Below are positions 38,271 through 62,067 of a stretch of 64,000 bases of DNA, one piece after another. This stretch comes from Polytrichum commune (Eukaryota > Streptophyta > Polytrichopsida > Polytrichales > Polytrichaceae). The stretch covers positions 15,564,001 to 15,628,000 of the forward strand of contig OX485806.1 in NCBI GenBank assembly GCA_950295325.1, written 5' to 3'. The stretch's first letter is position 1. Every line of letters starts with the position of its first letter. Position numbers and translations under genes: made by a program. A model generated the notes under the pieces. That model was not told where the DNA came from and searched no databases. It was given only the letters and a program-made list of their open reading frames with translations.

Positions 38271-39688
38271 GGCTGGATGGCAACTTTACTTTTAAGGAGG
38301 GCCAATGGAAGGGCCTCCAACAAGCTGGCCACTCATATTCACGTCCAGACTCCAAACACCCTGGGCCCCCATGGCATTTGGACTGGGTAGCATGTTCGAT
38401 TCCTCGACCCCAACTTTGATGAATTTTTCTTCTGAGCTAGCTGCCACCTAGTAGACACCCTAGCTAACAACGTCTTCGTGTACTTTTGCGAAATCCACCC
38501 AAACGTTCACATAAGGTAGATTAAGGTAGATGATCCGTGTGCTAAAACCGTCACTTTAAGCGCGGAGTGTATGTGTTATTATGAGATTGATGACGTTTTA
38601 TATTTTTCTCATGGGTAATTGAAAGGGGATTCCAACGCACGTACGTCCGTCTTGTTTGAACTCCGTATGCAAAAGATATAAGGACTCAAAGTTTCTATTG
38701 ATAGATGACTCAAGACCAAGGCATGGACACGATGTTGAGGTGGTGGACATTCTCATATTCAACAGAGTTAGTTCGTAAAGTAAGGTGGATGAAACCATAA
38801 GTTAGTCCCAAGCCGTGAGTTTTATGAGAATTGGCACAAAGCTAGTCGAATTTTCTCAATGCTTGAGTTATCATCCACAAGGAGTGGTGTCGGGCTGTTA
38901 AAAATTGCTTTTCTAGGTTGTCCTACTAGGATGGGTGGGCCAAGCCAACCTTCCATAAGTCAATCCAAGATTTACTAGGACAAATTAAGGTCCCATGTGC
39001 ATACCCTTTTTCAGAGCCTAAAAATCTCTCAAAGTTTGAGAGGTGGGAGGAGGAGACCCCAAACTTAAAAAATAGGCTCCCAAACATAATGAGCTAGCGA
39101 GCTCCTAATAAAAAGTTTTCTCAAAGAAGGATCAAACCCACGATTTTGTCTCTCTTTGAGGGACTTTATGGATTACTCTAATATGCATTTATTGTGGAAA
39201 ATTTGAAGGCGTTGGTTTTGGATGTGGCGTTGGTTTTAGCACCCACTTACCTTATGTTGAATCAAAGTGTAGTACTACGTCACACACAAATTATGAGATT
39301 TGTAATTTGGGTGCCTACGGCCTAACCGTGTGTTTGGATTAGGTGCAAAGTGCAAGTACAAAGTACCCATATTGATTTGTTATGCAATGCACAACTTCAT
39401 GTGGATTATGATCCCTTTGGAGGTCCCCTTTGTCTAATAGAATGAGGTCAACCTCAAACAACCAATGATGTGTATCATATACTAGATGTAGTCCAAATCT
39501 TTTGTCCAAAGGAATGTTTGAGTTGCGTGCATTAATTGTGTTAAAAGTAGTGTTGGACTTTCCTCACAAAGCATTAATCGACCACACAAATGCACCCCGG
39601 TAGATTCGCATCAAACACGCGTATATAGGTGGAAAACAAGTATTTGAAGACCCTTGGCAAGGACTACATAATATATACAGGCCAAATA

Positions 39689-41110: not shown

Positions 41111-42894
41111 CATATTTGAACACTTATGGCTCACATAGAATTATTGAGGAGCATGTTGTTACACTATGGGGTCGACAATTTGCGAGCATAACGTATTTTT
41201 AAAATCTTGGCCCACCTCCTTACATAATGAATAATATCCAGTGTGAAACTTATTGAATTCGTGTCTTTGAGCTAATAGCTAAGATTTTCGGGCTTGCCTT
41301 ACCGGAGATGAAATGTTTGTATATTAATTTTATTTGGTGAGGGTCACTACTAGGGGGGGGGCACGTGAACCAACGCATCTACTGGGTAGGTTTGTGCCAT
41401 ATCACCAACTAGCCTCATTGTGTGATGCCCTTTCAAAAAGGGAGCACCATAATGAGGCTGAGTAATGTTATGTGGAAGATTTTGAGCCATCTTTTGCTAA
41501 AATAAAGTATACTCTGGTACACACTTGTAAAAAAGTGGTAGCCAAACGACAAGTTCATACAACATGCTTGTAAAACTGGCACGACATATATATGAGGGGT
41601 CAAGAATTGACATGTCAATTTAGCTACCATTCCTCTATTAGTGACACCATTGCTTACTTATAATAAGTACTTTGCTAAAATCTGCAACTACATGCAACAT
41701 CACAATGCACTTGATGCGACTACATTTTGTGTGAAGGTTGTTGTTTTAATGCCATTGCATTATTGACGTGCTCATCATTATCATTCGCGTCACAGTTTGC
41801 TTTATGAATGGCAGATTCTGCAACCCCCAAAACCTTAATGTTTGCGGTGGCGTGGGGCTTATGTTGGACACTTATAATATGAGTGGTATTTGACTTGGAG
41901 TTAATAACATGCACCAAAAACACACACATGCTATGATGAGATTGGACTATATGCTCAAATGTATTCACCATCCTAGAGTTAATTATTGACTCAAATGGGA
42001 GAGCCACAAAGTTGTACGGGGTCAAGTTTTTACGTTGGACGGATGAGAGGTTCGCTCACATGTCATAATCCCTTCCTCCCCCCCCCCCCAACCTCAACTC
42101 AGGGTGAATGTCGTCCATGTAACCTCATCCAGCATGGACGAAAGGATCCTGGTAATAAAAATGAGTCCCCTAAAAGGTGGAGGGCTGATTCATCCCACCC
42201 AGACCCCCCGCCAAAGCAATTTTGCATCTCACCGATGCCATCTTCCGAAGTCACATCACCTTCAAACACACATATCTCATGCTACAAAACGATCTTTTGC
42301 GCTTCCACCTTCCTCACGGACGAGTTTACGTAGACGCCCACGAATCCTTCGCCCCAAACTCCAACACTGGCAACAACACAACTCATGCTTTGTTCCTTTT
42401 CCTTTTCCTTTTCCTTTTTGACAATAAAGGAACACAAAAACCCAGTACTACATATACACACGAATATGGACTGGACCGCGGGTACTACTAAGGCTGGGAC
42501 AGACCAACGCGTACACTGATTCCTTGGAGGCAAGGGTTCGCCCAAATCCGGGTACTAAGGAGAGTACGGGGTCGGTTAGGTTAGGTTACCGTTGATTGCG
42601 CGAGAGTGGGGAAGACCGAGGCAGCAGACGGGCAGGCAAGCAAGAAGGCAAGTCAGCCAGCCAGCCAGCCTGCCTGCCTGCCCATCTCCTGAGGCTGAGG
42701 ATAGGATGAGTGCATGTGGGTGCCCGTTTAATTGTCCTCGAATCGCTTGTTGTCGTTTGTTTGCTTGTTTGTTTATTTGTTTTTCCCTTCCTTCCCTTCC
42801 CAGGAGACTGAGTCGTGAGGGTGGGTAGCAGTAAGTTAGGGTGTACTTGAGAGGCTCGCAGGCAGTAATGGCAGATGAGGATAAGAAGAAGGCT

Positions 42895-43531: not shown

Positions 43532-43790
43532 ATGGCCTTATCAACTAAAATGAGTCAATTGGGCCATTATGAGACAATCCGTACCGTCATAATTGATGAG
43601 ATCTTCCATATTACAAGTGATTATTTGCATGGTTTTATAAACATGTGTGGGTGTATTGGAATGGTTGAGTTGTATTTTAAGAACCCTCAATGGGTGTTCT
43701 CTTGTACCAATTAGCAATCATTACGTTCCCATCACGTTCCCTATATTAAATTGAGTGGACCAATTGGCTCATTTTAATTGATAAGGCCAT
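43532..43790. mobile_element. MITE family IV, 259 bp, immediately left of the giant element
   Basis: The left end ATGGCCTTATCAACTAAAAT and the reverse complement of the right end, ATGGCCTTATCAATTAAAAT, pair for about 31 bp with two mismatches (through GAG.CAATTGG). It is flanked by AAAA on both sides. It has no coding capacity and is separate from the 44,051 element. Confidence 0.8.
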
Positions 43791-44050
43791 AAAACCTAAG
43801 AATAATAAGGGTCAAGTCACGACTACGGCCTTCAAACCTAATTTAGGTCCAATGCAAGCAAAATTTTCTCGAAGATCGTCTCAATTCAACAATTTATTGA
43901 AGGAAACATGCATTTTTTTTTTTTTTTTTAATTTTTTTATAGTGGAACTAACTGTACGGAGGGTGTACAAAAGACATCTTTGTGATGTTAGAATTGTTCA
44001 TACAAAATTTCAGTTGTTTGTGTGTTTCAAATCAAAAGATTATAACCATA

Positions 44051-44078
44051 AACACTATATTCGGTAATTGGAGACTTT
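44051..44078 (+). repeat. Left terminal inverted repeat of the 16.56-kb element
   Basis: Twenty-eight bases, one mismatch against the right TIR. Just inside, ATTTTGAGACT (44,085-44,095) is repeated in the same plus-strand orientation near the right end (60,564-60,574). Confidence 0.88.
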
Positions 44079-44359
44079 TTGTTGATTTTGAGACTATTTA
44101 AGGACGTGGCTTTCACATTTGTAGGAAGGAAAACACTAAAAATATGCTATGTTCCCAATTTTGGAAACAAATAAGAGACTCAAATGCATGGAACCACACA
44201 TAAAAATAAGAAAATGGGATATATGAAAACATTTGCATATGGAAAATCAATATCATATTTATTGAATAGGGGTTGAAGTACAAAATACAAGTGGAATATC
44301 CAATATTAGGCGAAAGTCCTAGAAACATAATTCCACAACTACATGTATGTTAATATAGC

Positions 44360-45244
44360 CTATACGTTCGGATCATGATTACGACTCACTACTTTTGCTT
44401 TTGCAATACTATTATTAGCATTTATGGCCGTTTCACGTTCTTTTGCTTTCATGGCCTCCATGGCTCTAAAGATCTCGGGTCCGCGGCTAAAACCTTGTGT
44501 ATTTGTCGACCCCGAATATGTGCCATTTGCCCATATTTGCCGACCCCCTACCGAATAAGTGGAATACGAATGCGATTGGGAAAACGAACGTCTTTCACTC
44601 TTCCGTAGGGCCAAACAACGATCAGACTCGCAAGAAGCAGTCTTCAGTGTTCGCCTATCCAATGACGAAGTCGAGGATGAACGGCCCACATTCATGTGTA
44701 TTGGGGTCTGAAACAATGACCATAAATACATATAATGATGTGGGTTAGTATAAGTTACGGATGGAAGTCCGAAAAACCCAATAATATGAAATGCACTAAT
44801 CCACGGAAATCATGAAGAAAAAACTTGAGAATGCCAATAATTGGGCACCTTGGCCTGCGGGGCGGTGGTTTGAGCTTCTGCGACATCGAGGGGGGCCACA
44901 AGCACAACAGGGACGCTCGTAAACGCCGGGACACCAATTTGGGGTTCATCCATACAAAGGCGTCTGGTCGACCGCGGGTTTCGAACGTGCTTCTCATTGC
45001 GGAGGGGAGATGGAGATGGAGATGGAGCGTAATTGAGTTTTGCAACCTTTGGAGGAGGGCTATCGACAACTCCGTCTTCAAACCCCGAGTCTTTGGAGTA
45101 ATCAACAGCAGAGGCGGCATCGACGGCTGAAAATTGAAATAGTGAAGGCATTGAAATGTCGGTCACACCGATGGAAGGGGAGCTGGGGCCCGGTTTAGAT
45201 GCACACATGCCATAGACGAGACTTTGGGATGCTTGGTGAGGCAA
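44360..45244 (-). CDS. Two 3' exons of the minus-strand element gene (unknown, low complexity)
   Basis: Exon 45244-44849 (acceptor GTGTCTTAG before TTGCCTCACC) joins exon 44707-44360 (acceptor TTGTTTCAG) in phase 0 across the 141-nt intron 44,848-44,708. Together they encode about 247 residues of Ser/Pro-rich, probably disordered sequence with no domain that I recognise. The intron contains a degenerate copy of the element's palindrome (44,754-44,776), as the other introns do. The first exon also starts in phase 0, but the HAD exon upstream ends in TGA at 45,333. The connection is therefore unclear: an alternative isoform, a separate small gene with an unseen first exon, or a transcript broken by the stop codon. 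No start codon is visible. Confidence 0.5.
44754..44776. repeat. Degenerate palindrome copy in intron 44,848-44,708
   Basis: GTTACGGATGGAAGTCCGAAA: the left arm TTACGGA and right arm TCCG are kept, and the centre is altered. It is in an intron, like nearly all the other copies. Confidence 0.6.
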
Positions 45245-45332
45245 CTAAGACACAAAAATACATTTACAAAATACGGGGAGAAATGTTAGATATAAACATG
45301 GAGAGTCCAAGTACAAACCCAAAAAGCAGTTC

Positions 45333-46100
45333 TCATATTAATTTATTGAGTTTGGCATAGCCGTACAACCTCCTAAATTCCTCATCTCTTGGGCCTAGAG
45401 GCCTATTGCCAATGGGGTTGGAGAGGACAAAATCCGGGACACTTCCGGGGTGATAGGCAAGCCTCCTAATGTAGGGTCCTAGTTCATTCTCTAGAAAGTT
45501 GTCATTTCTATCACTCTCCCAAGGATCCGGGAATATGCAACTGCCCAGGGGATTGAGAATACTCTTTGCCGGGCTGTCGTCAATGAAGAGCGTGTTCTCC
45601 GGGGTGGGCCAACAACCGTGGGGCACCCCCTCCAACATAGGGACGCCCACCCAAAGGTTCTTCCTCAGTACCTTTAGGAATTGAGGCCCTCGGCCTCCTC
45701 CGACCTTGGGTACAATGTTGCCATTACAGTCATAAAGGTCATCGCAATGTTCTTGACCGAGAAGCAAGCATGGCATTGTGAGTTCTCGGAAAAGGAAACC
45801 GACGATGGCCTTCGTGTTGTCCATGAGCATAGAGCTCCAGATGATGACATGGGCCAAGCCAAGGACATCACGAAGGAAGCACCTCAACCCCGGCCGGGCC
45901 CGTACAACCTTCTTGTTAATGAGAGTATCGAACTGTCCGCCGTAATCCATGTCTTGTGGACTACGGAAGGGACCCTTCGACGCACTATTGGAGATATGCA
46001 TGGAATGACAAAGCACCCCATTGAGGTCAAATATTATGAACGGTTTCCTCATGGGCCGGCTTGGTCTTTCAGCGGGGTTGCGACATATCTCCGACGGACC
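45333..46100 (-). CDS. FCP1/NIF-type HAD phosphatase-like domain exon
   Basis: Begins after a clear acceptor (CCATCACAG at about 46,101-46,109) in phase 0 and runs 255 codons to TGA. HAD motif I is FIIFDLNGVL (D25 of the exon; the usual second aspartate at +2 is Asn27). Motif II is IIWSS (about 86-90), and the acidic motif is LFIDDSP (171-177). The arrangement resembles the FCP1 homology domain of CTD and NLI-interacting-factor phosphatases, about the right length. The D-x-N variant may weaken phosphatase chemistry, although similar DLNG forms exist in plant FCP1-like proteins as I recall. An in-phase donor (GAAGAG before GTAATC, 46,441/46,440) lies upstream at the end of the ParB/methylase ORF. 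This exon is therefore probably the C-terminal domain of that protein, giving 1,614 aa in total. If it is independent, ATG at 46,052 would start a 239-aa protein. Confidence 0.75.
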   Translation of the reverse strand, partial: GPSEICRNPAERPSRPMRKPFIIFDLNGVLCHSMHISNSASKGPFRSPQDMDYGGQFDTLINKKVVRARPGLRCFLRDVLGLAHVIIWSSMLMDNTKAIVGFLFRELTMPCLLLGQEHCDDLYDCNGNIVPKVGGGRGPQFLKVLRKNLWVGVPMLEGVPHGCWPTPENTLFIDDSPAKSILNPLGSCIFPDPWESDRNDNFLENELGPYIRRLAYHPGSVPDFVLSNPIGNRPLGPRDEEFRRLYGYAKLNKLI

Positions 46101-46394
46101 CTGTGATGGAAAATACTATCTAGGTGAATGGTACTACCCATGAAAACCAATTGACAAGCATGCACAAACTCAACAAACAAATATAAGGCAAAAAAAATAC
46201 GAATACGCAGTTCAAAAAATTTGTATTAATGTGATTGGTTTAATACATTTCGCGAATAATTTACATTGTCACAAAAGGTCTCCCCTAAAACTAATTGAAT
46301 CTATGCTGGCAAAATTGCATCCACCCGCTGGGCGAAGTCGAGCATCGAACTCGACAATATGTACACGCCACGAAGTTGGCAGACAAGGAAGTTT

Positions 46395-46408
46395 CGGACG
46401 CGCGTCCG
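46395..46408. repeat. Palindrome copy in intron 46,440-46,101
   Basis: Core CGGACGCGCGTCCG with flanks TTT and TAA, matching the family half-site TTTACGGACGC with the left A missing. It lies just downstream of the proposed donor at 46,440. Confidence 0.85.
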
Positions 46409-46425
46409 TAACGTGGGAGGCAAGC

Positions 46426-49400
46426 TCAAAGGTGGATTACCTCTTCAGCGGAGAGGTCCTCGCCAGCAGTGCCTCCCTCACCAGGCCCCATCGTGGGCAC
46501 AGGTGCCGGACGCGCGTCCGCAAAATTGTGCATGCTATCCTCCACCACCAAGGAGCCTCCAGCCGCTTGCGACCCCTGGGTATCGACATGAGGTTGATCT
46601 TCATCTGTGGTGTCTTGGCTGCCCCGCATATGTTCATCTTCTTGGCTGCCCCGCATATCTTCATCCTCTTGGCTGCCTCGCATATCTTCATCTTCTTGGC
46701 TGCCAATGGTTGTGATGTCTTCAATGGCGCCTTTCTCGTGAGCACCTGCCGTATAACGTGCAGGTCTCTCCTCCTCTCGTACGCTATGAGAGGAGGGCTC
46801 TGGGGTGTCGGCAACCTGGGGAGAGGGCGGGACATACAAGGCGGGGGCTGGATAGGTATGCTCTGGTATGTACACCGTATGGCTACTAGACGGAGGCCGC
46901 ATGAGAGTGGGAGGCATCGACATGCCGGCTTCGGGAGCTGCATACATTACTGGGGGTCTTGCTTGCAAGCTCTGCATGAGGCTCATAAATTGTTGGCTCT
47001 GGGCCAAGAATTGTTGATTTTGAGCCATGAGATCGGCGTGCCTTCGAGCAGACTCCAACCTAGCCTCCTCCATCTCAGCTTGGATGGCGGCCATCTTTCT
47101 GGCGTGCTCCTCGTTAGCTTCTCGAAGCCGTTGGTCAAGCTCTTCCTTCATTCTTTTCTCCAGTTTCTCGTCCAATTCGGCCACAGACATCGGCTCTTTC
47201 TTCACCTTGCCAGGTTCAGAAGGCAAGGCAGAGAGGGCATTGTACATCCTAACCTCATCCTCGTCTTCATCGGAGAGTTCCAAGACGGCGCCTTCAGGGT
47301 ACTCGTTGTAAGGAGTCTTCTTTCTCTGTCGACGACTCTCACGGTATGAGGCGATATCCGGCCTCAAAATCAACTCCAGCACATCTCTACCCTCCATAGG
47401 TGGTAGCTCTGCCTGTTCAGACCCCCCTCCAGATGAGGCTGTGCATCCGGCTTCTGTCGCAACGTCCACATCCTTCTCTGCCATAAGCCCAGCAGCACGC
47501 GATGGACCCGCAGTGGAAGGAAACCCAACTCGAGAAGTGGGAGTCCCAAAGGGAGAGGAAATAGGGGTAGGATGGACCCTTATTGGAGTGAAGTCTTCCT
47601 GCGCCCCCTCTGTATCCATGTGGTCTTCGCCCAAGACAAATTGATGAGGATGAACAGGATCACGAACAAGGCCGGGCACGTGATCTTGTCTGGCTGGCTG
47701 CTCTCTTGGGGAGACGGCCTCTTGGTCTCCGTCACTGTCCCACTCCGTCGCAGGAGTTCCCTCTTCTCTTGAGGCAAGAGGCACCACAGGATGGGGGGTA
47801 AGGACATCGATGATGTCTTCGATATCTATTTTCGAGGCAAGAACCCTATGAGTATTCGCCTCATCCATGTCGCGAGCCTCCACAAACGAATTTACCTGCA
47901 ACCCAAGCATCTGCACCAAAACAAGGAAATTATAGTCATTCCATTGTTGCGAGCAAGTATGAGGACAAATATAATCATGAAGCACTGCAATTTACGGACG
48001 CGCGGCCGTAAATTTACACTGCATATTTGTGTGGCCAATGTTACGGATGCGCGGCCGTAAATTTCAATTCAGATGAACCATGGAAAGAGGTGCATACAAG
48101 TACTTACCAATGCCGCATAAACAAATTTGGTGCCTCCGAAGACGTTGTAAACTGTTTCACTCATCACAGTCACAGCCTTCAAGACTCCAATATAAAAATC
48201 CATTCGGAGTTCGTACGCCGGGTAGATTGCATACATAGTCTCCGCGACAAGCTCCTTGGGGTGTGGTGGTGGCAACGAGTATACTTTCTTGAACACGTTC
48301 TGCGCTTTGATAGGCATCCGCCCACTTGGTGAAGACTTGTGTGTCAAGAAATAAAGTGCCAAAGCCCCGACCTGCTTCGCCCCTCTTGCCTCTTCAATAA
48401 CACTGATCCCTTCCGTCTTCGCGGGGATGTATGTGCTGTGGTAAAGATCGTATTGGAGGTTCATCGTCGATGTGTAAAGCTGGACGACCGATGCGGACCT
48501 CTCTTGATCTACGATCCAGAGCCACACATTTGGCTCGAAGAGGGCAGGCGACCGATAGCTCTTGAAGGCCTTGAAGAAGTTGTCATAGAAAGCGGTCCCG
48601 CTAGCGTTTTGTCTCCAAGATCCGGGAAATGCACGGAAATCAAATAGTGCGAACGGACAACCCCGGGGGTCATCTCTCACAGAGGCTTTTGAAGCATGTG
48701 TGTCCCATGTGCCAAACTTCAAGGCCGTTGTAACAGTGCAGAATCTTACGACCCCTTCGAATTTTGCTTTCTTTTTTCTGTCAAGGAAATGGACGTACAA
48801 CGCCGTCTCTCTTTCGTCGATAGACCCTTTCTTCTCGTTCCTCCTAGATCTTTGGGCTAGGAAGGGAGATGCGCCTTTTATCAATGATCGCATGGAGACC
48901 CCATTGATGTGATATTCCTCCTTGAGCGTCCTCCAGTTTTCCCACATTATTTTACCATCTGTATCAGTGAGGTTGTGGGAGGACAGCAGCTTGCTAATTT
49001 CCCTTATAGCCATGGTCTTCTTCTTCCTGTATTCACACCATTCTTTAATGTGGTACGTGGAAGGCTTCATGTGCTTCGGCCGCTTCAGGAAGATTTTGGG
49101 GTAGGGCAGTGTCCTCCTCGGAGTCTCCAATAGGATGTGTTGTGCCGCTCTGTACAGTTCGGAGTCGAGCAATCCTTGGAGGGGACGAAAGAACTCTCTC
49201 AGGATAGGTGGCACCTTAACCTTCGAGTCGCTCTTGTACGTGTTTTCTGCATCCGGATTGATAAGGTCTCCGTTGTTGTGGGCATCGAATAGGCGCAACC
49301 AAATTGTCCATGTCTCTTCTGTGGCGGTGATGAGCTTAAGTTCCCCCTTCAGCTCCTGCACCGTCTTCATGCCGCTTGTCTTCAAGTCAATGCTGGAGAA

Positions 49401-50831
49401 CTTTGTCAAGATGGCATTGCTGAATGTCTGCAATGCCATGTATTACAAGAAATCAGCGGAGCTTAAATCAAATGAATTAAAGAATTGGAAGGAGATGGGA
49501 AGAAGTTTACGGACGCGCGTCCGTAAAATTATACTGAGACATACCTGCCATTTGGGATTCTTGATGACTGCATTCTCCCTCTCTTTTGGGGGACAATCGT
49601 GCTCTACCCACAAGGTCCTTCCAGCCACGATGTTGGCAGCCCATGAAGCCTCGAACTGCCTCACTTTATTCCCTTGGTTCATGAAGGCAGATATTGCGAT
49701 GAGCTGGTTCGAGTCTTTGGAATGGACGACGAATGCCTTCCAGTATCGGATTGTCTCTTTCAAAGGGCTCTTCCACTCATCGTCCTCTAGGAGAGCTTTT
49801 GCAGCCATCACACTATGTTGGCCGTCGACTATGTAGAACTCTCCATCTTTGAGAATTGGCCAGTTTTGCGCTGTGACTTCAACCACAGGATCCTTTGGTG
49901 TCACACATATGGTTTGCCTATCAAATTTGGGGTTGTTCATAATGTTATTCATTTGCCACCACACCCCGGTCTCTTCTTTGGCACGAGTATTCATACTCTC
50001 CGTGCCCTTGTGGCATTTGTAGACATCCACATCAAACGTGAAATATCTTCCAAGTGGCCAGCAGCCCTTTGTCTTCTCGTCGAACTCTTGGAAAATCTTT
50101 GTGGAAAGTTCGGCGTCAGGGCGTTGTCCTTTCTTCAGGAGTGGTGCGACAGTAAGAGTAGAGCTCACATCTGGACCCTCTGTTAGCCATGACGACTCCA
50201 TCTGTGAGTGGGAGCGTTTACTAGTCTGCTTGCTCCCTCTTGATGCCCCACTCTGTGAGGGTCTCGAGGCTTCTGGCACGTGTTTAGGAACACGTTTAGG
50301 TCGTTTAGTAACTGGTTTTTTCGCCTTTCCTTTCTTGGCTTCCAGTAATGCCCCATTTACTCTTGTCACATTGTTCAAGAGACGTCCAAGCCGTTTACCC
50401 GTCCAGGGTGCATTGCATGCATAGTCTTGGAATTCATTCTGTAAATTGAAGCAAGACGCATCTGGGCTGGCATTTTCACATTCATTTTTGTTGAACGGAT
50501 GGTACAACTCGTGCAAAATGAATGTGATCCTATCATTTTTCTTTTCAAGGTCAATGACAACATAATCACCTTGGGCTATCGCACACTCTACTGTCCAGTT
50601 TTTTACCTTCATCCACTTCTCGGATTCATGTATATCTGCTTTTATTTGATAGGCAAATCTAAGGACAAATATATCATTTTCGTCTTTTTCTACAATAACT
50701 GTCCAGTTATCTACAATGTCTTCGCGTGGCTTGTAATGGTCGTTGTGGCTTATGTCTTTGATGGCTTTTGGAAGCGGAGGATGGACAAGCTCTGCGAATA
50801 AATCAATAGCGGGTCTTTTTGTAAATTCCAT
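46426..50831 (-). CDS. ParB/DGQH-like domain plus DNA-methylase-like protein with disordered tail (three exons)
   Basis: Exons 50831-49545, 49427-48108 and 47910-46441, all phase 0. Without splicing on to the HAD exon, the frame stops at 46,426. Exon 1 (residues 1-429) has a basic NLS-like stretch at 166-183 and FYIVDGQHSVMAAKAL at 332-347. The latter resembles the ParB/Srx-fold and DGQHR signature (D-G-x-H-R, then AA). Exon 2 (430-869) contains YDNFFKAFK..LFEPNVWLWIV (710-735) and ends VYNVFGGTKFVYAAL, which continues into exon 3 as MLGLQVNSFVE. Across the junction this matches the SAM-binding motif of N4-C/N6-A DNA methylases (DxFxGSGT..AA..LGR). The expected catalytic DPPY/W is replaced by DFRAFPGSW (692-700), so activity is doubtful. 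Exon 3 (870-1359) is acidic and disordered, with a coiled coil at about 1112-1185 and a GSQEDEDMR tandem repeat. ParB-methylase fusions are known in phages; here one lies inside a plant transposon. Confidence 0.7.
46507..46520. repeat. Exonic palindrome copy
   Basis: CGGACGCGCGTCCG inside the coding frame of exon 3, translated as part of ADARPAP. It is the only copy that falls in predicted coding sequence, and its outer arms (TGC/GCA) are also inverted. Confidence 0.8.
46612..46707 (-). repeat. 27-bp coding tandem repeat
   Basis: Three to four units encoding GSQEDEDMR in the ParB/methylase gene's acidic tail. Units differ by single substitutions (one has EDEH). It lies within exon 3, in frame. 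Confidence 0.85.
47991..48060. repeat. Two palindrome copies in intron 48,107-47,911
   Basis: Copies at 47,991-48,012 and 48,041-48,060. Both have the variant centre GCGCGGCC instead of GCGCGTCC. They sit between a strong donor (GTAAGT at 48,107) and the acceptor TTTTGGTGCAG (47,911). Confidence 0.9.
49506..49527. repeat. Palindrome copy in intron 49,544-49,428
   Basis: A perfect 22-bp palindrome (TTTACGGACGC plus its reverse complement) centred in the 117-nt intron between exons 1 and 2 of the ParB/methylase gene. Confidence 0.95.
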
Positions 50832-50886
50832 CTGCAAATGTAAAATATACAAGTCAGTATTAAGGTCTGGGAATGCAGAGCCTATC

Positions 50887-51503
50887 TTACGAACGCGCGG
50901 TCGTAAACCTTTGCGTACCCTTTCCTATATAATGTGGTTATGTATTATGTTATAGTACATGTCAAGTTTACGGACGCACGTCCGTAAACTTGAGATATCT
51001 TATAAAAAGAAATCACATACATGATATATGTCCAGAGTTTACGGACGCGCGTCCGTAAACTCTGCACATATATCATCTAAAAGTTTCTATTTCTATATTC
51101 TATGAATATAATATGTTTTTTATTATTATGTAGCCCTAATTTACGGACGTGCATCCGTAAATTCTTGGAAAATAAGTTCATTTTTGTTGTGTAGAACTTG
51201 TATATTTTGTAGAACTTATTTTGAAAACCCATGACATGTATTATACTCTGAGATTTTCATAGTTTTTGCTGCCTAGTTTACGGACGCGCGTCCGTAAACT
51301 CTGCACATGTATCATGTACCACATTTAGTGTACTTAGATATTTCAAGTTTACGGACGCACGTCCGTAAACTTATCATTCATGTTTTTAAATAGTTCTTTT
51401 TAAATATATCTACAATTTACGGACGTGCGTCCGTAAACTGTTCACACATAGTGCGATGCATATTCCCAGGGTTCCCTGAAGTTTACGGACGTGCGTCCGT
51501 AAA
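50887..51503. repeat. Cluster of eight palindromes in the 5' intron of the ParB/methylase gene
   Basis: Copies at 50,887-50,906, 50,967-50,988, 51,038-51,059, 51,140-51,161, 51,277-51,298, 51,348-51,369, 51,416-51,437 and 51,482-51,503. Consensus is half-site TTTACGGACGC followed by its reverse complement. Spacing is 60-140 bp, in AT-rich DNA. Several extend to arms of 15-16 bp (for example TGAAG before and CTTCA after the copy at 51,482). The whole cluster lies between a probable donor (51,759) and the acceptor at 50,832, directly before the ATG. Confidence 0.95.
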
Positions 51504-51759
51504 CTTCAGGCCATTTTTTAATTACTCTAAATTTAATTACTTTGCACAATTACTGTGTTTCTGGATATTGCTCCGAAATTTTCGGAACAGGTTTTTTGTT
51601 GCATTCCATTCATGTGCAATGTTCATCTTTACTTGGAATGCAACATGGATTTGCACTCCAAATTAGAATATATCAGGTGTTGCATTGCAATAGCAGATTC
51701 TACACTCCAAACTAAGAAGAATGTTCCATTTCAATTTGCAATGTACTAGAAACACTTAC

Positions 51760-51805
51760 CTTTGTACAATGTTTGCTGCTCAACTACAGCTGCAGCTAGG
51801 ACAGA
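51760..51805 (-). promoter_or_regulatory. Probable small 5' UTR exon of the ParB/methylase gene
   Basis: Acceptor TTAATTTGCAG (minus strand) followed by 46 nt and a consensus donor AAG before GTAAGTG. It would splice to the exon beginning exactly at ATG 50,831. It contains no ATG and so is non-coding leader if used. Confidence 0.5.
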
Positions 51806-52289
51806 CTGCAAATTAACAATAAAATTGAAGTTAGAAACCTCTGGTAATGCAATGTGCACATTCAAGATTCAACTAAACTGTGTGTTGCTCCTAAAATGCA
51901 TCAAACCCACCAAAAAAACCCTACTACAAAGATTGCACTGGATTGAACATTGACATCAGATAGAAGTGAACAAAGCAAAACATATGATTTCTTAGAACTT
52001 GGAAAAAGTGAATTCAAGTGAAGTGAAGACAATTACAAACTGAAAGGAGGAGCACTCTGAAACAACTGAAATACTCCAACCCTAAAACCCTTGCAACAAC
52101 TGAAACTACTCCATTAATGTCCTAATGAGACTGCAAGCAAAAAACTACTCAATTTTTGATGTTACTTGCAATTGTGAGTGCAACAAAACATTGCATGCTC
52201 ACACAATACTCACAATCCTCCTCTTGTGCATCAATACATAAACTCAAATCACCTAATTAGCACCTGGAACAGCACATCTAGCAAAGAGG

Positions 52290-52640
52290 GAAAGAAAAAA
52301 ACACCTGCCTGGAGCTCCTGGCGCTCTTATGGAACTAAAAGCAAGGAGGAGGAGAAACAACAAAGGAAGAGCAAGGAGGAGGAGAAAGAGGAGAAACAAC
52401 AAGAAGGAGGAGGAGGAGAAGGAGGACCAACAAGGGAGAAGGAGGACCAGTAATAGTAGCAAGGGAGAAGGAGGAGAAGGAGGAGCAGCAAGGGCGAGGA
52501 GCAAGGGCGAGGAGGAAAGGAACGATGGTGGGCGAGGAGGAAAGGAGCGAAAGGGAGTAAGCGAAAGGAGCAAAATGAGCAAAAAGGAGCGAAAGGAGCG
52601 AAGAGCAAGGGAGTGTATCGAAACCCTAAACCCTAAACGT
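52290..52640 (-). promoter_or_regulatory. CT-rich leader and telo-box promoter region of the minus-strand element gene
   Basis: On the minus strand, 52,320-52,610 is a long CT-rich tract such as is often found in plant leaders. It is preceded by AAACCCTAAACCCTAAA at 52,621-52,637, a double telo-box. A possible donor (GGCAG before GTGTTTT) lies near 52,296. The overlapping charged ORFs in this tract on both strands are artefacts of the purine repeat. Confidence 0.45.
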
Positions 52641-55600
52641 CACATCCACTCCCTACCTAGACGTCCCATCAACCCGCGCCCAAAGGCCACATGTAACCCT
52701 TACGTGGCATATGTCTATTGGTCTATTTTGTGATTGCTAGAGTCCACCCTCGATAAATGTTACACTTCCACATGTTAACTCATAATTGTATTTGTTAACA
52801 AATTCGTACTCCTCTCATATTGCTAACTAGAATGTAAACTTTGTTACATGTTAAGAATAATTTATTCCCCTCTTTGTTAATTTGCCACTTATAAATGTTA
52901 ACCTACGAACTACATCCAATATTGTGAGATGACATCCATTACATTGAGTCACAACCTTTCAAAGTGGCAAAAGCCACCAAATTTGACTTTTGTGATCAAA
53001 TTATTAATATGGGTTATATTGTGATTGATACACATATTTTATAATTTATAATTTTGCAAAACTCTCCCTCCATAATTGTAATGAATTAAATTTGTTAAGC
53101 ATTCAAAAAGCTCCCTTTATAGTTGTTACAATGTTAACTCACAATAAATGTAAGGAAAATTATATTCCAGAGCATAACATTTATAGAGGATGGATTGTAT
53201 GTGGTGAGTCCAAAAACGAATACCAAAAACAATTGCTGACCAAAAATAAAGGAATCTCAATGCTCAAATTATAATAACCATCTAGGCCCAATAGTAAACA
53301 TAATTTTGAAGTATGGGTTGAGGTTGAGTAACTCAAGTGTAAGATTTTCTTTGTGGACTTGTTGTAATATGAAGGTAAGCGGGCTTTAAATTACTAGTAC
53401 ACTAAATATTATAAGTAGTATTGCTTAATATTTAGAATTATGGAATGCTATATTAACTATTCATTGTATATTATGTCATTGGCATCAATTAAATAACATC
53501 AATAATAAAAAAGATAAAGCATTTTGTAATTTTTTACCACAAAGGTGGGATTCAAATGCAATTGGGACAATAATATACCCATTGGCCAAAAATTCAATTA
53601 ACCCTAAACCCCTACACCCTTATGAATCCCTCAATTATCGCAATAATTTGTGAAAGGGGATTTTCAACCTAAATTATACTATCAATAGCAACTTGGGGAC
53701 TTTATTGAAGTTGGACACTTGGGATGCTTTGATGTGAATATCATTATTAATGATATTTAAATTAAGCATGTTTGAAACACAATTAACAAAACCAAACATC
53801 GAGATAATATGGGTTAAGATCAAATGCTTATAATATCTTAAACAACGTTAGGGGTTAATTCAATCCCTCTGCACATAGGTCTAAGCTTGTATTAGAACAA
53901 AAGGAATGGGTAGGTGTTGAATTTACATCCCTCTTGTCCATTAAACAACCTTCAGGATTCATGCAATCCTTCCAAACCTAGGCATGAGCTTGTATTATCG
54001 CCTATAAGTAGTAGCAAATTGTTGTTTATATTGGAGTTTTGTTTCCACGACATGTATGGTTGTGTTAAGTATTCGATTATAGAATACCAATATATGATGT
54101 TCAAAACCTATCTTCAAAAGTAAAGGTTTAAAGCAAATGGATAAATATGACTTAGAACATAACTTTGATGATCTTAAATGTTTTGAAGGCTTAATTGTTT
54201 TCATATTGTATCCCATCAAAGAATAACAAGTCTCGGCTAAATCTTGTACTTGCCTCTAAGGGGTGGATTTTACCCAGGCAAACAAAGATTAAAAAAATGA
54301 AAGGTAAGGTTACGCAACCCATGTACCTTTTTCCTTAGCCAAATTAAGACCACATATTGGATTGCCATTCACAATTTGATAAATCTTTGTTCTATGTCAC
54401 CTACTTTTTCACCACTTACCATGTCTTCAAGAATAATTTGTAAACATAAATTTGCTTGACTTTTGAAATCTTGATGGTTTTGTTTTAGAGAATTTTAAGC
54501 CTTGACATGAGTCGGGAGTCGTTTATAGGGTTTAGGGTTTAGGGTTTAGGGTTAAGAGTATCCCCCTTGTGTCACCGACTTAATATTGGTTGCCTTATTA
54601 CTATTTAGATACCCTACCCTCCCTTTCTGTCCATTATATTTTATGGGTTAATAGTATTACGTAGAACAACAATTGGTATAATTGTTTGCTTGCTTGTTTT
54701 GAATTACTTTCCACTTAAGCCTTGACATGTATCAGGAGTTGTTCAGTTAACCATGCTTGCATCTCTATGTCCACATGTTTGTTTAGGTTTGGGTGGTTAT
54801 AGGGTTTAGGGTTGAGGGTAAGAATGTTACTTGGAGCAACAATTGGTATTGTTTGAGTATTAATTAATGTAGGTAATGTACATGAGGTACTAAAATATGT
54901 TTTTCCTCACGTATAGTACATGAAGAAGGCTAGTATAATTAGTTTTTTTGAAGTAAATGTTGATGTACGGAAGGGGCCCCTAAGGTTTAGAGAGAAAATT
55001 GATAATATTGAATTTAATGCAACCCATGTTACCTAGGACAATAGATGTGCTACTATCATGGCCTTACGGTAATCAAAGTTTCTGTATCAGATATGAATAC
55101 AATTATGTATAGGTGTGTATAGGTGGGTAAATTAAAAATGTTGGATGGTTAGGTGGTGGCCAATGTAATTATAATATTAAATGCAAGATGAGAGGAGATA
55201 GCATGATATTATGGTCAATACCATTACATTGTATGCAAAACAATAAAGTAGTTGCTAATTTAATTTTGATTACATGTATTTTTATACTCCATGTACTATT
55301 GTTGTTGCTAATTTAATTTTGTTGTCTACGTTTTTTAAAATGTACTCTTCATATTAGGTACTCCAATATTATAAACCACCCCTCAACAATGTTTATTGCT
55401 CATATAATATTAACCAATTTACTTTGTTGTATACCACAAATACATAGATGCCTTTTTCTTTGTCATTATGTGGACTCATGGTCTATGCATGTAGTCCACA
55501 TGAATACACATTCCATTGTAAGGCTGGCATACGGAATGTAGTAATGCTAGGTTTGTATTTATAGGACATAGTTGGTGGCTGGTATCCTATGTTGGAAAAC

Positions 55601-55660
55601 GGATCCAAGGTAAAGCGATCAGTACTTAAGGGGACACCCCCCACCGTCGGGACTTTTTTT
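52640..55660. other. Central AT-rich spacer between the two divergent units of the element
   Basis: No exon chain or domain on either strand. It holds plant-type telomere repeats (54,525-54,553, four TTTAGGG-type units; 54,799-54,815, shorter). It also holds a diverged direct duplication of about 220 bp (54,498-54,690 and 54,717-54,860) that shares AAGCCTTGACATG, GGAGT.GTT and CAACAATTGGTAT. None of the palindromes found in the flanking introns occur here. Confidence 0.55.
54525..54553 (+). repeat. Interstitial plant-type telomere repeat inside the element
   Basis: About four consecutive TTTAGGG units. A shorter related run is at 54,799-54,815, as part of a local duplication. Confidence 0.9.
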
Positions 55661-55669
55661 GCATCTCAG

Positions 55670-55717
55670 CTGTGGGTTGCGCTCTTGTAGTGTGCTCCTG
55701 CTACAGATTTTGTGCAG
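55670..55717 (+). promoter_or_regulatory. Probable small 5' UTR exon of the transposase gene
   Basis: Acceptor TTTTTTTGCATCTCAG, 48 nt, then donor GCAG before GTAAAG. It mirrors the small leader exon of the divergent gene. If used, the following intron (55,718-56,886) contains the seven palindromes of the right cluster. A diverged partial duplicate of this exon lies near 55,795-55,870. Confidence 0.4.
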
Positions 55718-55894
55718 GTAAAGATCCTATTGCAATGGACCTATTATACCCTAAACCCCAAGTCCTGAGCCCATTAGGGTACACAATTTGTATTTGGGTT
55801 GCACTCTCCTTGTAGTGTGCTGATTTTTTTAAAATTTCGGACAGTTATCCTTTCTGGTGCAATGATCCTATTTTCACGCCGCAAATCACGGAGA

Positions 55895-56747
55895 TTTACG
55901 GACGCGCGTCCGTAAACCTTAAACATATTGGTTCATTGAACCTTTATTTGTTTGAGCCAATACTCATGTACGTTGAGGTTTACGGACGTGCGTCCGTAAA
56001 CCTGCATACCTTTGGTGCTATAGTTCTGTAGGTCACCTACACCACCTGTCGTGTAGAGCACCACAACGACAATATATTACCATGGAAGTTTACGGACGCG
56101 CGTCCGTAAACCGTAAACCCCTTGGCGCGTTGGACATTGTATTTAGGCTAGTAATGATGTCCACAGAGGTGTATTCCATCGATCACTGTCTTTATGCTAG
56201 GAATGAGGTCCACAGAGGTTTACGGACGCGCGTCCGTAAACCTGGAAAGCTTTGTTACCATAATGTGCCATGTAGACTGAGACTGCAGTGAGACTGCAGT
56301 GAGACTGTACGGTCATGAAGGGTTGGGAGCTCGCATCCCTTAGCCTACATCACCCTATGTGTCATACTATAATAATTTGACAGTGATTAAACATTTTAGG
56401 AAGCGCGTATGGCCGTGTTCAAACCTCTTCAAATTTCATGAGTCGTCAGGCTTGTGTATACATGGCCGTGTTTGGAGGACCTCTTGCTTCCTTGAACCTC
56501 TGTCTAGGACTACATTGATGTTTGTCATACGGATGTTTACGGACGCGCGTCCGTATACCTTTGTTTTGGTTGAGGGTTTAACTGAACTCTGTGTACGAGC
56601 CGATTTACGGATGCGCGTCCATAAACCAGTGATGTTTTTTTTGCCTCCTCCTTTCCGCTCCTATGAACACATCAATGTATCCGTATGCGCGTGTGCTTGC
56701 GCTGCTGATGTTATTACATGGAGGTATACGGACGCACGTTCGTATAC
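55895..56747. repeat. Cluster of seven palindromes upstream of the transposase start
   Basis: Copies at 55,895-55,916, 55,979-56,000, 56,089-56,110, 56,219-56,240, 56,536-56,557, 56,604-56,625 and 56,724-56,747. The first four are perfect or near-perfect 22-mers. The last three have paired or unpaired changes (TATACGG arms in the last). All lie within the presumed 5' intron ending at the acceptor TTTTGTAG (56,886). Confidence 0.95.
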
Positions 56748-56891
56748 CAATGCTAGCTTTGTTTTCAAGCCATGAAATCCACTAGTGTTCACATTGTGTT
56801 TCATTGACAATAATAAGCGTTAGGGCTATCCATGACATTTATTGAATGGGATATTTTGACATACTCTTCATTTGGCTCTTTTGTAGTGGCC

Positions 56892-59800
56892 ATGGATTCC
56901 AACGTCGGTGATAGTGGGGTTGATTTTTCGTCGGAAACGTCAAGCTATGCTAGCGAGTTTGAAGTTGTCGTGGAACAAGAAACTACAATTGGTGTCGCCA
57001 ATGTAGAGGATGAATTCCTCCCACCATGTGAGGGTTATTCCCGGGAGCAGTGGATTGATCTTGATGTCGTCCTCCTCAATGGATGTGGCGTCCCCGTGGC
57101 TGATGGTGTTTGTCGGAACTCGAATCCTACGGATTGTATTGATGCAAATCCCCTTGGGGAAGAAGATGTGGGGGTGTGCATTTTGAATTCTTTACATCCG
57201 TTGGAAGTGCCTTCTGGTTGGAGATTCTCTCTTCGTCGATGGCCGTTGCGCAGTGTTCTTCATGATGGTGTCAGCTTGTGGAATCATTCCCGCCGTTTTG
57301 ATCAAATGCAATCGGCATTGTTCTCCACAATGCGCCCTAGAATGGGTCGGCGTAAATATGATTCCGTTCGTTTGCCTCGTGAACCCACGCAACGTCGTCG
57401 AGATCAAACATTGGGAGATGCATCTATTAGGTCCGTAGCAACAAATGATTGTTGTGCAAAGAGATGTTGCCAACTATTTCCCCGTGACAAGATCAAATCT
57501 TTGAGACAAGAGATGTGGCTCGCGGACTTTCGTATGCGATCTGCAAAGAAACTTGAAGTCCATCGCAACATGCATCTTGATGTCGAAGGTCGTAAGGTTG
57601 TGACCTTGGAAAATGTCGAGATATGTTGCAAGGCATGGTACATTATACATGCAGTTTCAAAGGCAGATTTTTATAGGTTCCGGAACTACTCGATGCAAGG
57701 ACGCCGTTCTCGGTTCCATGGCAACTCTGGCACAAAGAAGCCTAGGGAGGCAACACTCCAAGCGGCTGCAACACTATCAACCATCATTATGCCATTGGCA
57801 GATGCGATGCCACACAAGACGCGAACTCTGCCGTCGGGGGAAAAGGTTGTTCAGATGGTTTTGCCTACAGGGACAAAATGGAAGAACATACTTATGGATG
57901 TTAATGAAATTGGCGAAAAGGCTGGATGTGGGCCGATTTCGTTGTCAAAATTGAGTGTGATCAAGAATCAACAATTCGCAGAATACATTACGAAGAGACC
58001 TGGGGATAAGTTTGCCAGGTGTTCTGCTTGTGAGAAATATAAAGGCCTTCGAGATGCACATCCCATTGGGACTGAGTCCCACAACCGACATCAACTGAAA
58101 TACATTGAGCATGTCAACAACCAGGAGGCACACCGTCAAGACTACTACAAGAATCGCGCATTATCGATAATGAGGCCGAATGAGGTTTTGACAATCATTC
58201 ATGACAAAATGGACCATGCAAAGACGGCGTGCCCTTGTTATGCGCGGAAAATAAAGGCTACAGATGGATATTTCAAGCTTCCAATATCTGTCACAGGTTT
58301 GTTGGTTTTCACATTTATTTTTTGCGCGCCCACATACTCATTGTTAAGATTTACGGATGTACGTCCGTAAGTGTACATTTTTTTGCTTGCTTGGGGAAAT
58401 TTTTGAATTTCATTCATATATACGATTTGTGTGGCTAAATGCAGGTATGATCGCACATGGTCATGTGGACGTGAAATATGCACATTATGGCTTGGATTTC
58501 TATCCTGGCGACGCCAATCATACCGTAGGGTCTTTTGCAAAACTTCTACGAGATCTTGAGAGTCCGCCCACATCATCCTCTCGTGCTCTTTTTGTTGGAT
58601 GTGGAACAACACCGATTTATGAGGCTGTGCTAGAGGGGAAGGAGGTTTGCCTATCTTCACTGCAAGAACCGCCTGAACAACCCGTTCTTGCTAAACCTTT
58701 GCCTCCAACTCTACACGTGCAACTTGACAATTGTGCCAAGGACAACAAATGTCGATACGTATTTTGTTTTTGGTCATTGCTCGTAGCCAAGGGCATTTTC
58801 AAAGAAGTGTTTGTGTCTTTTTTTATGGTTGGCCACACGCACGATGACATTGACGCTTCATTCGGACGTTGGAGTATGAAGTTGCACGAGGAGGATTTTC
58901 CCACAATTCCTCTTCTCATGAAATCGTACATGGATTTGGATAATGTGCCAGTCATCCCGCATTTGATTGAAGAAGTGCCCGATTTCAAATCGTTTATCAA
59001 ACCATTCATTCTTAAGGGAGGTGACCGCTTAGTGGGCCATACCAAGGCTCAACAATTCCGATTCTATATGCGTGATGATGGTCTGCCGGCCATGCAATTC
59101 AAAGTTTTGTGTACCTCCCCGAATTGGGGCCCAGAGGAAGGGATACTCGTATGGCGCCAAAACGAAGATGGCAAATGTATGCTACCTGATGGGGAGCCGA
59201 AGCCCTGCAAACCCAACCCCATGAGGAATGGACCAGAAATCATCAAAGGTATATCTGGATTCATCGAGTACTGGAAAGATTTGTGCGAGGAAGACATCAC
59301 AAGACGTGTTCGGGATACCCACGAACCATTGATTGCGTATTGGGATCGCATCCGCTCAGCGTTGCTAGCACCCGAAGACGATAGACCATCATGTTTGACA
59401 CAAGGTTTTTGGCCACTAAGCCGAGTGACAATCGTGGAATCTGAGGCCATGTTCTTCAACAATGGGGACGTTCGTGAAGAGTTCGCGGCGGACGACCATT
59501 ATGTTGGCCCTGCTCGTAATCGCCCGGCTCCATCATTTCGTGTGGCTATTGATTGCTACGAAGGTTATATGGTCCTCGTACGTCCTGGAGATGAGGAACA
59601 TCCTAAACCGATTTGGTTGGTGAAAGCATTGTCATCACCAAATTTTGTTCCAACTAGCCCAAATTTTCGTCAAATTGAGGTGGAATATTGCCGTCCAAGC
59701 ACCAAAGATCAAAATATGTTCCGCACATATTTAGGGTGGGACACGAAAAAAGGTTTCAAATGGACAATGGACTCAGCATACGAACCAATATGGATAAACA

Positions 59801-59967
59801 CGGATACCATACTTTGTGCTTGGAAACCACGCAAAGGTTCCAAAACTGAAACAATGACCATCCCCCAAAAACATATAGATTTTGCCAAAGACAACTTGGC
59901 ACGTATTGCTGCTGCAGAAAACAATGTCGAGAATGGAAATGAAGCAGAAGATGAAGATGGTGAATGA
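56892..59967 (+). CDS. Putative RNase H-like transposase (DUF7869-type, GHTHDDID motif), two coding exons
   Basis: Exons 56892-58296 and 58445-59967, 975 aa. The intron (148 nt) splits a Gly codon in phase 1 and contains a palindrome. I chose ATG 56,892 because it follows an acceptor (TTTTGTAG, 56,886) by five bases in a strong context (GCCATGG). An in-frame ATG at 56,832 would lie in the intron. Seen: a Cys-rich segment CC..RCC (187-193), possible zinc ligands C377xxC380, FKLPISVTGMIAHGH across the splice site (461-475), NHTVGSFAKLLRDLE (493-507), QLDNCAKDNK (561-570) and GHTHDDIDASFG (598-609). D438 (IIHDKMD), D563 and D603/D605 make a plausible DDD/E triad. From memory this layout matches a family of uncharacterised eukaryotic proteins with a GHTHEDID signature. 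Transposase function is inferred from the triad and from its position in a TIR element. The tail is acidic. Confidence 0.8.
58350..58370. repeat. Palindrome copy in the transposase intron
   Basis: TTTACGGATGTACGTCCGTAA, with TpG/CpA at the central CpG positions. It lies in the middle of intron 58,297-58,444. Confidence 0.9.
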
Positions 59968-60091
59968 TATTGACGTAGGTTTGGACCAAAGATATTTGAA
60001 TGTGTATTGGTTTTTCATAAAATATATGACATTGGGGTCGAATACTATATTAGACACATTTTATAGCAATTTTATAGATTACAATTATATT

Positions 60092-60367
60092 GCATGGATG
60101 CATTGATTTACGGATGTGGAATCCAAATGTTTTTTATGTTTGTGTTTTTACGGATGTGGACCCTAAACTATATAATTATATTGCATGGATGCATTGATTT
60201 ACGGATGTGGAATCCAAATGTTTTTTATGTTTGTGTTTTTACGGATGTGGACCCTAAACTATATAATTATATTGCATGGATGCATTGATTTACGGATGTG
60301 GAATCCAAATGTTTTTTATGTCTGTGTTTTTACGGATGTGGACCCTAAACTATATAATTATATTGCA
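60092..60367 (+). repeat. 91-bp tandem repeat, three units, near the right end of the element
   Basis: Units begin at 60,094, 60,185 and 60,276 (ATGGATGCATTGATTTACGG), nearly identical (one T-to-C difference near 60,320). Each unit has two half-sites, TTTACGGATGTGG, related to one arm of the element's palindrome. The ORFs at 60,094-60,448 are read-through of the repeat, not genes. Confidence 0.9.
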
Positions 60368-60578
60368 GATGCTAATTTGCAATTTCGTGTCATTGGAATA
60401 TTGTGTTGGCATAGTTTTGATTATCAACTGAATAATTACTATATTTAGAAACATATATATTCATCACATATGGATCTTTAAAACATTATGTTGCCATTGT
60501 TCCCCATGTTCCCCATGTTCGCTACGTTCACAATATTCGCATCCGAAACTACGGGTCCAATTTATTTTGAGACTTTCC

Positions 60579-60606
60579 AAAGTCTCCAATTAACGAATAT
60601 AGTGTT
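60579..60606 (-). repeat. Right terminal inverted repeat of the 16.56-kb element
   Basis: Reverse complement of the left TIR with one mismatch. A small hairpin GAGACTTT-CC-AAAGTCTC overlaps its inner edge (60,570-60,587). CATA follows at 60,607-60,610. Confidence 0.88.
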
Positions 60607-62067
60607 CATATATGTGTACAATGGTATGGTTGGACAAAGATAGATGTCTGGTCAAGAAAGTCAATTTTAAATTTTTGGGGTTAATCGCTCATGGGCTACG
60701 GTAAGTGGACCATAATCAAACACTTTACTCTTTGCACCCACTTCTCGTAGGATATGAAACACACAATTAGTGCAAGACATTTAGCAAATCCAAATCGTGC
60801 TCTTACCCATTTTCCTCATAATTTGGAAGTTCATATGAATGTATCCTATTTGTTATGAAGGCGAGGATTCATGTGCTTTCCTCCCCAATTATGATGATTA
60901 TTGAGTCTAGAATAATCAACATATTTTGAGCATGTAGCCTCTTTTGAACACATGCCTTTCTGGTGTCTGTTCTTAATCCACACCTACCCACACAAGACTT
61001 TAATATAGGTGTCCACATTTTGGGGGCGATTGCATGAACACCGGTCTACCTTAATCGGTAGAGAAATATTTTTGTTGATCTAGCCAATTGTGATTGGGGG
61101 TGGGGTTTAGGGGAGGTTGAGAGCCCATGCAAGCTACTTTACCTGTTCCAACATTTGTTTCAAAATCACTATAATTGCTTCTACTGACTTGGTGGTTTGT
61201 TACTTGACAAAGAGGATCAACAAATGTGGAAAGAGGCTTTTGAGAGGACTCCATAGATCATAGCATTTGTGTTAGATTAGAACCCAACTAGAAAAGGTTT
61301 ACACTTTCAAATGTCATTTAAAATTTTAATTAGAAACATTTTTATTTTAAAAAAACCTAGGAGTATTTATTTTCACTTCCTTGGAACTAAAAAAAATTAT
61401 AACCACAAAAAAGTAAAAGAAATGCACTCCAAAATCGTGTTTCTTAGAAATATTTCGGCAACACCAAACCAAGTTCTAAGGATGCTGACCCTAGGGTGCT
61501 ACTAACTATAGTTGCCCGTGACTTTAGAAAATTGTCATTCACAAGTCTAGGTAACATCATGAGTTGGGCTTACTCACTACAAATGTATGACACACAAGCA
61601 ACACATCATGTGTCTTTGACAAAACATGCAAATCTACCATAATCATGATAGGTTTACCAAATAGCATAAGTTTGTGACGCATGACAATTTTCATGGACTT
61701 AGGATGTGCTGCCCAAGTCTCATATGTTTGTCATGATTAGATATGTTTAATTCCAATTGACTTGGGTTGGAGGAGGTTGTTGTTGTTGTTGTTGTTGGAT
61801 CGATGGATTTGTTGGTGTTGTTGATATGAAGTCCTTGTGTACCCCAAACCAGAGGCTTGCCACATTAGGAGGACACCAGTTTCAAAGTGATTTTCACATG
61901 TTCATGTAAACAACTTCCATTGACTCCCAATTTTACCCTTGGGGTGGCAAACCCTACCCTATAAAATTAATTATTTCTGAATCCCATCTAGTGTTGCATC
62001 TAATGGGATGCATCATTTTTCCTGTTTTGTTTTTTTTCTTTCACAAAGAGGCGCTCCAATATCATGC

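Follow-up and report, generated by a model that had tools for sequence, protein, structure and literature searches.

A mobile DNA element of 16.6 kb in Polytrichum commune contains 22 copies of a perfect 22-bp, CpG-rich palindrome, TTTACGGACGCGCGTCCGTAAA, which differ from it by 0–6 mismatches; 21 of these lie in predicted introns, and their outer CpGs are better conserved than the central one. The element, with two divergent genes, occupies positions 44,051–60,606 of the window, i.e. the whole stretch of 64,000 nucleotides that was analysed (GenBank assembly GCA_950295325.1, contig OX485806.1, positions 15,564,001 to 15,628,000, forward strand). With about even confidence, we read the palindromes as sites at which a DNA-binding factor, probably a product of the element itself, would keep the element active in a manner resembling that of the VANC proteins of the Arabidopsis VANDAL transposons.

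Palindrome copies and their placement in predicted introns

The scan of all 64,000 bases locates every copy between 44,754 and 58,371 (Table 1); six copies are exact and seven have a single mismatch. No copy with 6 or fewer mismatches is present in the remaining 47 kb of the window, the next best match being at 42,313 with 7. A looser scan of the 64 kb (TACGGACGNNCGTCCGTA, 3 mismatches allowed) yields 23 matches, namely the same 22 and one at 38,634, compared with an expectation of 0.02 (100 shuffles, the largest count being 1). On the + strand, TTTACGG occurs 22 times in the window, always between 47,991 and 60,329. Six half-sites TTTACGGATGTGG, the second half of which is degenerate, are found in the tandem array that follows the right gene on its 3' side, ~265–500 bp from the right end of the element, so that the half-site is repeated outside introns too, near that end. 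Some copies, those at 51038 and 51482, form longer palindromes. The spacing of the sites gives no consistent helical-phase signal (periods 9.5–11.5, in small samples and with no significance test).

About 22 CpG-rich palindromes, nearly all intronic, had been reported in the original prediction, with eight and seven copies in the two 5' introns and one in coding sequence (at 46507 there, 46503 here); positions and counts agree with those found here, apart from shifts of 1–4 bp at three sites, and support for the right 5' intron is weak. The same prediction saw no palindromes outside the element or in its central spacer, and none with 6 or fewer mismatches is indeed present there, but the element turns out to be wider and the six 3' half-sites had been missed.

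The predicted left 5' intron carries eight sites and the right one seven; four left internal introns have 1, 2, 1 and 1, and the internal intron of the right gene has one. The central spacer of ~4 kb has no palindrome. Of the 16,556 bases of the element, 3,179 belong to predicted introns, 4,908 to other noncoding sequence and 8,469 to coding sequence (in this base-class mask, the left intron lacking a site was put at 45,215–45,350, later refined to 45,222–45,369). When seven clusters of sites are placed randomly in the element, 21 intronic sites are obtained in 1 of 100,000 trials, and when the placement is limited to noncoding sequence, all 21 are intronic in a fraction 0.0002 of 20,000. Circular shifts of the whole site set give 21 intronic sites in 84 of 16,555 cases; for shifts of at least 60 bp the maximum is 20, reached by four shifts.

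These introns are predictions, with splice sites chosen by eye. The left 5' donor, AAG/GTAAGT, is strong (matrix score 8.71, P 0.023 versus 300 shuffles). The right 5' donor, CAG/GTAAAG, ranks third upstream, where even the best donor does not exceed chance (P 0.57), and the right array could therefore represent a promoter or leader; if it is counted as such, 14 of the 22 sites are still intronic. Two further donors, at 44,848 and 45,369, are weak, and the latter was picked to keep the reading frame open; it belongs to the predicted left intron 45222–45369, which is without a site, so the earlier claim that every definable internal intron bears one holds for five internal introns and would not extend to this one. 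Next to the left 5' intron, 51760–51805 may be a leader exon of 46 bases, as a canonical acceptor (TTTGCAG) lies just upstream of it; the left gene would then have another 5' intron.

With the sites masked, the seven introns compared (45222–45369 not among them) show no pairwise BLAST match at E 0.05. The shared unit is thus the palindrome plus at most a few bases on each side, and descent of the introns from one inserted sequence is rejected. That introns with nothing else in common carry the same site speaks for its being read by a protein.

Sequence conservation within the site

The typical site is flanked by AAG..CTT in the left array and by AGG..CCT in the right one. Columns 5, 6, 8, 10, 17 and 20 are invariant in 22/22 copies. 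The CpG positions differ in their conservation, with changes in 1/44 cases at the outer, 6/44 at the middle and 9/22 at the central positions. The difference between centre and outer positions is significant by the Fisher test (1e-4) and stays so when the copies at 44754 and 46503 are removed (4e-4) or only the 15 array copies are used (9e-4). Deamination of methylated CpG would account for 16/18 of the changes in CpG columns, which are C>T or G>A. The simplest reading is that deamination erodes the CpGs unless they belong to a half-site that is being read, and the combination of kept outer and decayed central CpGs suggests a protein-binding site of two half-sites under selection.

In the left 5' intron, 34/38 CpGs fall inside sites, which amount to 176/928 bases, and the observed/expected CpG ratio elsewhere in the intron is 0.21. 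Since this intron is CpG-poor outside the sites, their origin as a by-product of generic CpG richness is rejected. The pattern of changes argues for selection on the half-site sequence and not on the CpG count. It had been proposed that binding or modification sites are kept dense across the element without disturbing its proteins; that part of the original prediction fits best, given the placement in predicted introns beyond chance, the dissimilarity of the masked introns and the retention of outer CpGs around a loose centre, although the argument from half-site sequence makes modification sites less likely than binding sites.

Proposed function and competing explanations

In the proposed mechanism, a dimeric or two-headed DNA-binding factor would read a half-site of about RTTTACGGA(C), the centre of the palindrome being read loosely. 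The factor, probably a product of the element, would bind along it, chiefly in the 5' introns or leaders of both genes, with one or two further sites in the majority of internal introns. In its bound state it would keep the chromatin and transcription of the element active, which amounts to anti-silencing plus autoregulation. The location of the sites in introns would reflect the fact that an invariant 22-mer can be maintained there with no constraint on the protein sequence.

The closest known counterpart comes from Arabidopsis, where, in the parts of PMC5735166 consulted, the chromatin immunoprecipitation signal of VANC21 on VANDAL21 is reported to peak in introns, in intergenic sequence and in the noncoding ends, and the protein to bind a 9-bp motif in vitro and to remove methylation, its targets being changing tandem repeats, introns included. 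Sequence-specific anti-silencing through intronic motifs is already described for a transposon, in passages of both PMC5735166 and PMC10398659 on Arabidopsis VANDALs. The two systems share many short motifs in repeated clusters, located in introns and other noncoding sequence and mostly outside coding exons (as those passages have it), and each encodes another large protein in addition to the presumed transposase. They differ in the site, a CpG-rich palindrome of 22–26 bp here compared with YAGTATTAY for VANC, and in the presumed transposase, which here bears DUF7869. The VANC domains DUF1985 and DUF287 (named in the consulted part of PMC5735166) have no Pfam match in the gene parts scanned, which do not include left exon 5. 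Other proteins linked to demethylation are MURA and Spm TnpA (the latter in a passage of PMC10398659), and part of PMC12730594 describes TET/JBP dioxygenase genes carried by some fungal transposons.

A more specific version of this reading, which we consider quite improbable, is that the element, whose presumed transposase bears DUF7869, independently evolved a VANC-like system, in which its 1,842-aa protein, positioned at the intronic palindromes, would act on RNA polymerase II via a NIF/CTD-phosphatase-like domain and so keep the element transcribed and unsilenced. In the general form of the reading too, the element would be a second case of such anti-silencing, set apart by another kind of presumed transposase, a discrete 22-bp palindrome and a partner that resembles a phosphatase. 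It would show convergent evolution and offer a compact, testable protein–site pair; the pattern of kept outer and decayed central CpGs also predicts the contacted bases. Mostly at the level of titles and the beginnings of abstracts, which are weak evidence of absence, the literature gave no description of such an arrangement.

Several observations weigh against the general reading of the palindromes as sites for a DNA-binding factor. The left protein has no recognised DNA-binding domain in the parts scanned (KfrA_N, at E 0.056, is below cut-off), and AlphaFold models built from single exons and single sequences have mean confidence scores (pLDDT) of 33.5 and 32.1, too low for use. The VANC motifs are 9 bp long and the consulted passages do not call them palindromes. 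Conservation was assessed among copies within one element only, and these are not independent, as the copies at 51277 and 51348 sit in an inverted duplication of those at 50967 and 51038. The difference between middle and outer CpGs is not significant (P 0.11), the non-CpG columns have 21 changes, so that change is not limited to CpG decay, and the CpG contrast of the right 5' intron is weaker than that of the left one (31/58 CpGs in sites, observed/expected ratio outside 0.57).

The main competitor, unlikely in our estimate, is that the palindromes act as RNA, forming hairpins in the introns through which splicing, nuclear retention or the production of small RNAs would be controlled. Placement in introns would be natural for such a role, and the left 5' intron folds far more stably than 20 shuffles (z –20), but any DNA palindrome folds as RNA, so this score does not discriminate. 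In the 22 oriented copies, a helix of 19 pairs exceeds 500/500 shuffles in covariation score and percentage paired; the number of further pair types, however, is not unusual, being reached by 123 of 500 shuffles. The core is conserved by sequence and has few compensatory changes, two-sided ones affecting three of its nine pairs (columns 11–19), each in a single copy. The covariation lies mostly in the flanks, where pairing of the first five bases exceeds that in a free shuffle (P 0.0008 for 22 sites; P 0.0028 for the 20 sites left when duplicated copies are dropped), but shuffling within groups with the duplicated copies dropped raises P to 0.09, which indicates that most of the pairing is an array-specific symmetric consensus. 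One site, moreover, is exonic and the six half-sites lie outside predicted introns. The sequence is thus conserved more clearly than the pairing, and this favours a protein that reads DNA.

The protein in question might instead come from the host, as a transcription factor or a methyl-CpG reader for which the two leaders would contain enhancer or silencer sites and the other introns stray copies. Both arrays are within ~1 kb upstream of the start codons, and the possible promoter or leader nature of the right one suits this explanation. It is nevertheless rather unlikely: five internal introns also bear sites, as far as 6 kb away from the start codon of the left gene, the central spacer, the expected place of a promoter, bears none, and no copy at 6 or fewer mismatches exists in the rest of the window.

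A transposase could also use the palindromes as recognition sites for excision, as with CACTA subterminal repeats. In a soybean CACTA element, the consulted part of PMC2613891 describes many paired subterminal repeats that can form 2 and 12 palindromes at the two borders and are domains for TNPA-like binding, and the six 3' half-sites lie near the right end. The strong sites here are internal, however. On the left, the outermost copy is the degenerate one at 44754 (0.7 kb in), followed by 46391 (2.3 kb), on the right it is 58350 (2.2 kb in), and the left and right arrays lie ~7 kb and ~4–5 kb, respectively, from the nearer end, so that we regard excision sites as very unlikely.

The least probable explanation is that the palindrome itself is a tiny mobile or self-copying sequence that survives preferentially in introns, the landing sites of the original prediction: the surroundings of the copies are non-homologous and some copies extend to longer palindromes, but direct repeats flanking the 22 sites do not exceed 4 bp (3–8 bp searched, with up to 2 bp of play), there is no copy with 6 or fewer mismatches elsewhere in the window, and there is a conservation of outer over central CpGs that would not be expected of a neutral repeat.

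The element and its two genes

Table 1. Features of the element, with the palindrome copies and their locations.
Feature	Position	Strand	Description
Left terminal inverted repeat	44051..44078	+	AACACTATATTCGGTAATTGGAGACTTT, 28 bp
Left gene	44360..50831	-	six predicted coding exons, 1,842 aa, no internal stop after predicted splicing
Palindrome	44754..44775	.	degenerate, 6 mismatches; predicted left intron 44708-44848
Palindrome	46391..46412	.	predicted left intron 46101-46440
Palindrome	46503..46524	.	open coding sequence, left exon 3
Palindrome	47991..48012	.	predicted left intron 47911-48107
Palindrome	48040..48061	.	predicted left intron 47911-48107, second site there
Palindrome	49506..49527	.	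exact; predicted left intron 49428-49544
Predicted left 5'-leader intron	50832..51759	-	eight palindromes: 50886, 50967, 51038, 51140, 51277, 51348, 51416, 51482
62-bp quasi-palindrome	51018..51079	.	around exact site 51038, 94% complementary
Predicted right 5'-leader intron, or promoter/leader	55718..56889	+	seven palindromes; weak donor
Right-array palindromes	55895, 55979, 56089, 56219, 56536, 56604, 56725		
Right gene	56892..59967	+	two predicted coding exons, 975 aa, DUF7869 (PF25273), presumed transposase
Palindrome	58350..58371	.	predicted internal intron of right gene, 58297-58444
91-bp tandem array	60083..60367	+	3.1 copies, six half-sites TTTACGGATGTGG; 3' of right gene, outside predicted introns
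Right terminal inverted repeat	60579..60606	-	27/28 identical to left

The 28-bp inverted repeats at the two ends of the element (AACACTATATTCGKTAATTGGAGACTTT) have no third match with 3 or fewer mismatches in the 64-kb window. CATA flanks both termini (44047–44050 and 60607–60610), a possible 4-bp target-site duplication that could also be due to chance. The element resembles CACTA/EnSpm transposons in that its termini contain CACTATATTCG, in having GC-rich repeated motifs able to form palindromes and in a two-function logic of transposase and DNA-binding protein. It differs from them at the ends, which begin with AACACTA if CATA is the duplication, CACTA starting from base 3 of the shared terminus; a 3-bp duplication directly outside CACTA is not seen, as the two ends have AAA and TTC. 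Arrays of binding motifs close to both ends, as in CACTA elements, are absent as well, the right end having only degenerate half-sites nearby, and the right protein has no Tnp2-type transposase domain, DUF7869 being its sole Pfam match at E up to 1.

The match of the right protein to DUF7869 is strong (E 2.8e-41, 141.7 bits compared with a Pfam cut-off of 26; E 5.4e-38 for exon 2 alone). Pfam gives the family no function, and a literature search found no paper naming it. The protein is presumed to be the transposase on account of the termini and of the aspartates in its LDN and GHTHDDID motifs. A PDB search with right exon 2 gave five matches at E 0.19–1.8, which are taken as chance.

In the left gene, coding exons 1–3 measure 1287, 1320 and 1470 bases, each divisible by three. 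A NIF/CTD-phosphatase-like domain (PF03031, E 8.3e-12) in the C-terminal third of the protein is the only match above the curated cut-off in the parts scanned. The NCBIfam search of the NIF exon gives TIGR02251, a dullard-like phosphatase family (E 2.6e-5), and that of exon 3 gives BREX_BrxC (E 0.026) and PRK05771 (E 0.58), probably reflecting a coiled coil; all three are below cut-off. The sequence search of PDB has no match for left exon 1 at E 10 and none for the NIF exon at E 0.01. The phosphatase-like domain (45453–46037) carries DLNGV; classical members of the family have DxDx(T/V). It is perhaps a captured host gene and possibly catalytically altered. A ParB-like identity of the DGQHS stretch in the left protein finds no support in any library. 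In the coding sequence of left exon 3, a 27-bp tandem repeat of 3.4 copies (46613–46704) encodes repeated GSQEDEDMR peptides.

A search for relatives covered viral contigs for both proteins and genome contigs for the right protein; pattern matches were found in one stretch of the former and four of the latter, none of which was confirmed. In the viral contigs, neither the palindrome with its centre left free nor a degenerate nucleotide pattern representing GHTH(D/E)DID had a match, and Rfam and ARAGORN gave none over the window.

An inverted duplication of 108 bp (82%) within the left 5' intron (50959–51377) duplicates two palindromes and so links four left copies. The central spacer (51760–55717) contains 7/17 of the occurrences in the window of the telomere-like repeat AAACCCTA or its complement, in two clusters on opposite strands (52621–52628 and 54526–54540); TTTAGGG repeats are of the plant type. 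Just left of the element, at 43532–43790, a pair of 35-bp inverted repeats (91%) surrounds 189 bp, resembling a small miniature inverted-repeat transposable element.

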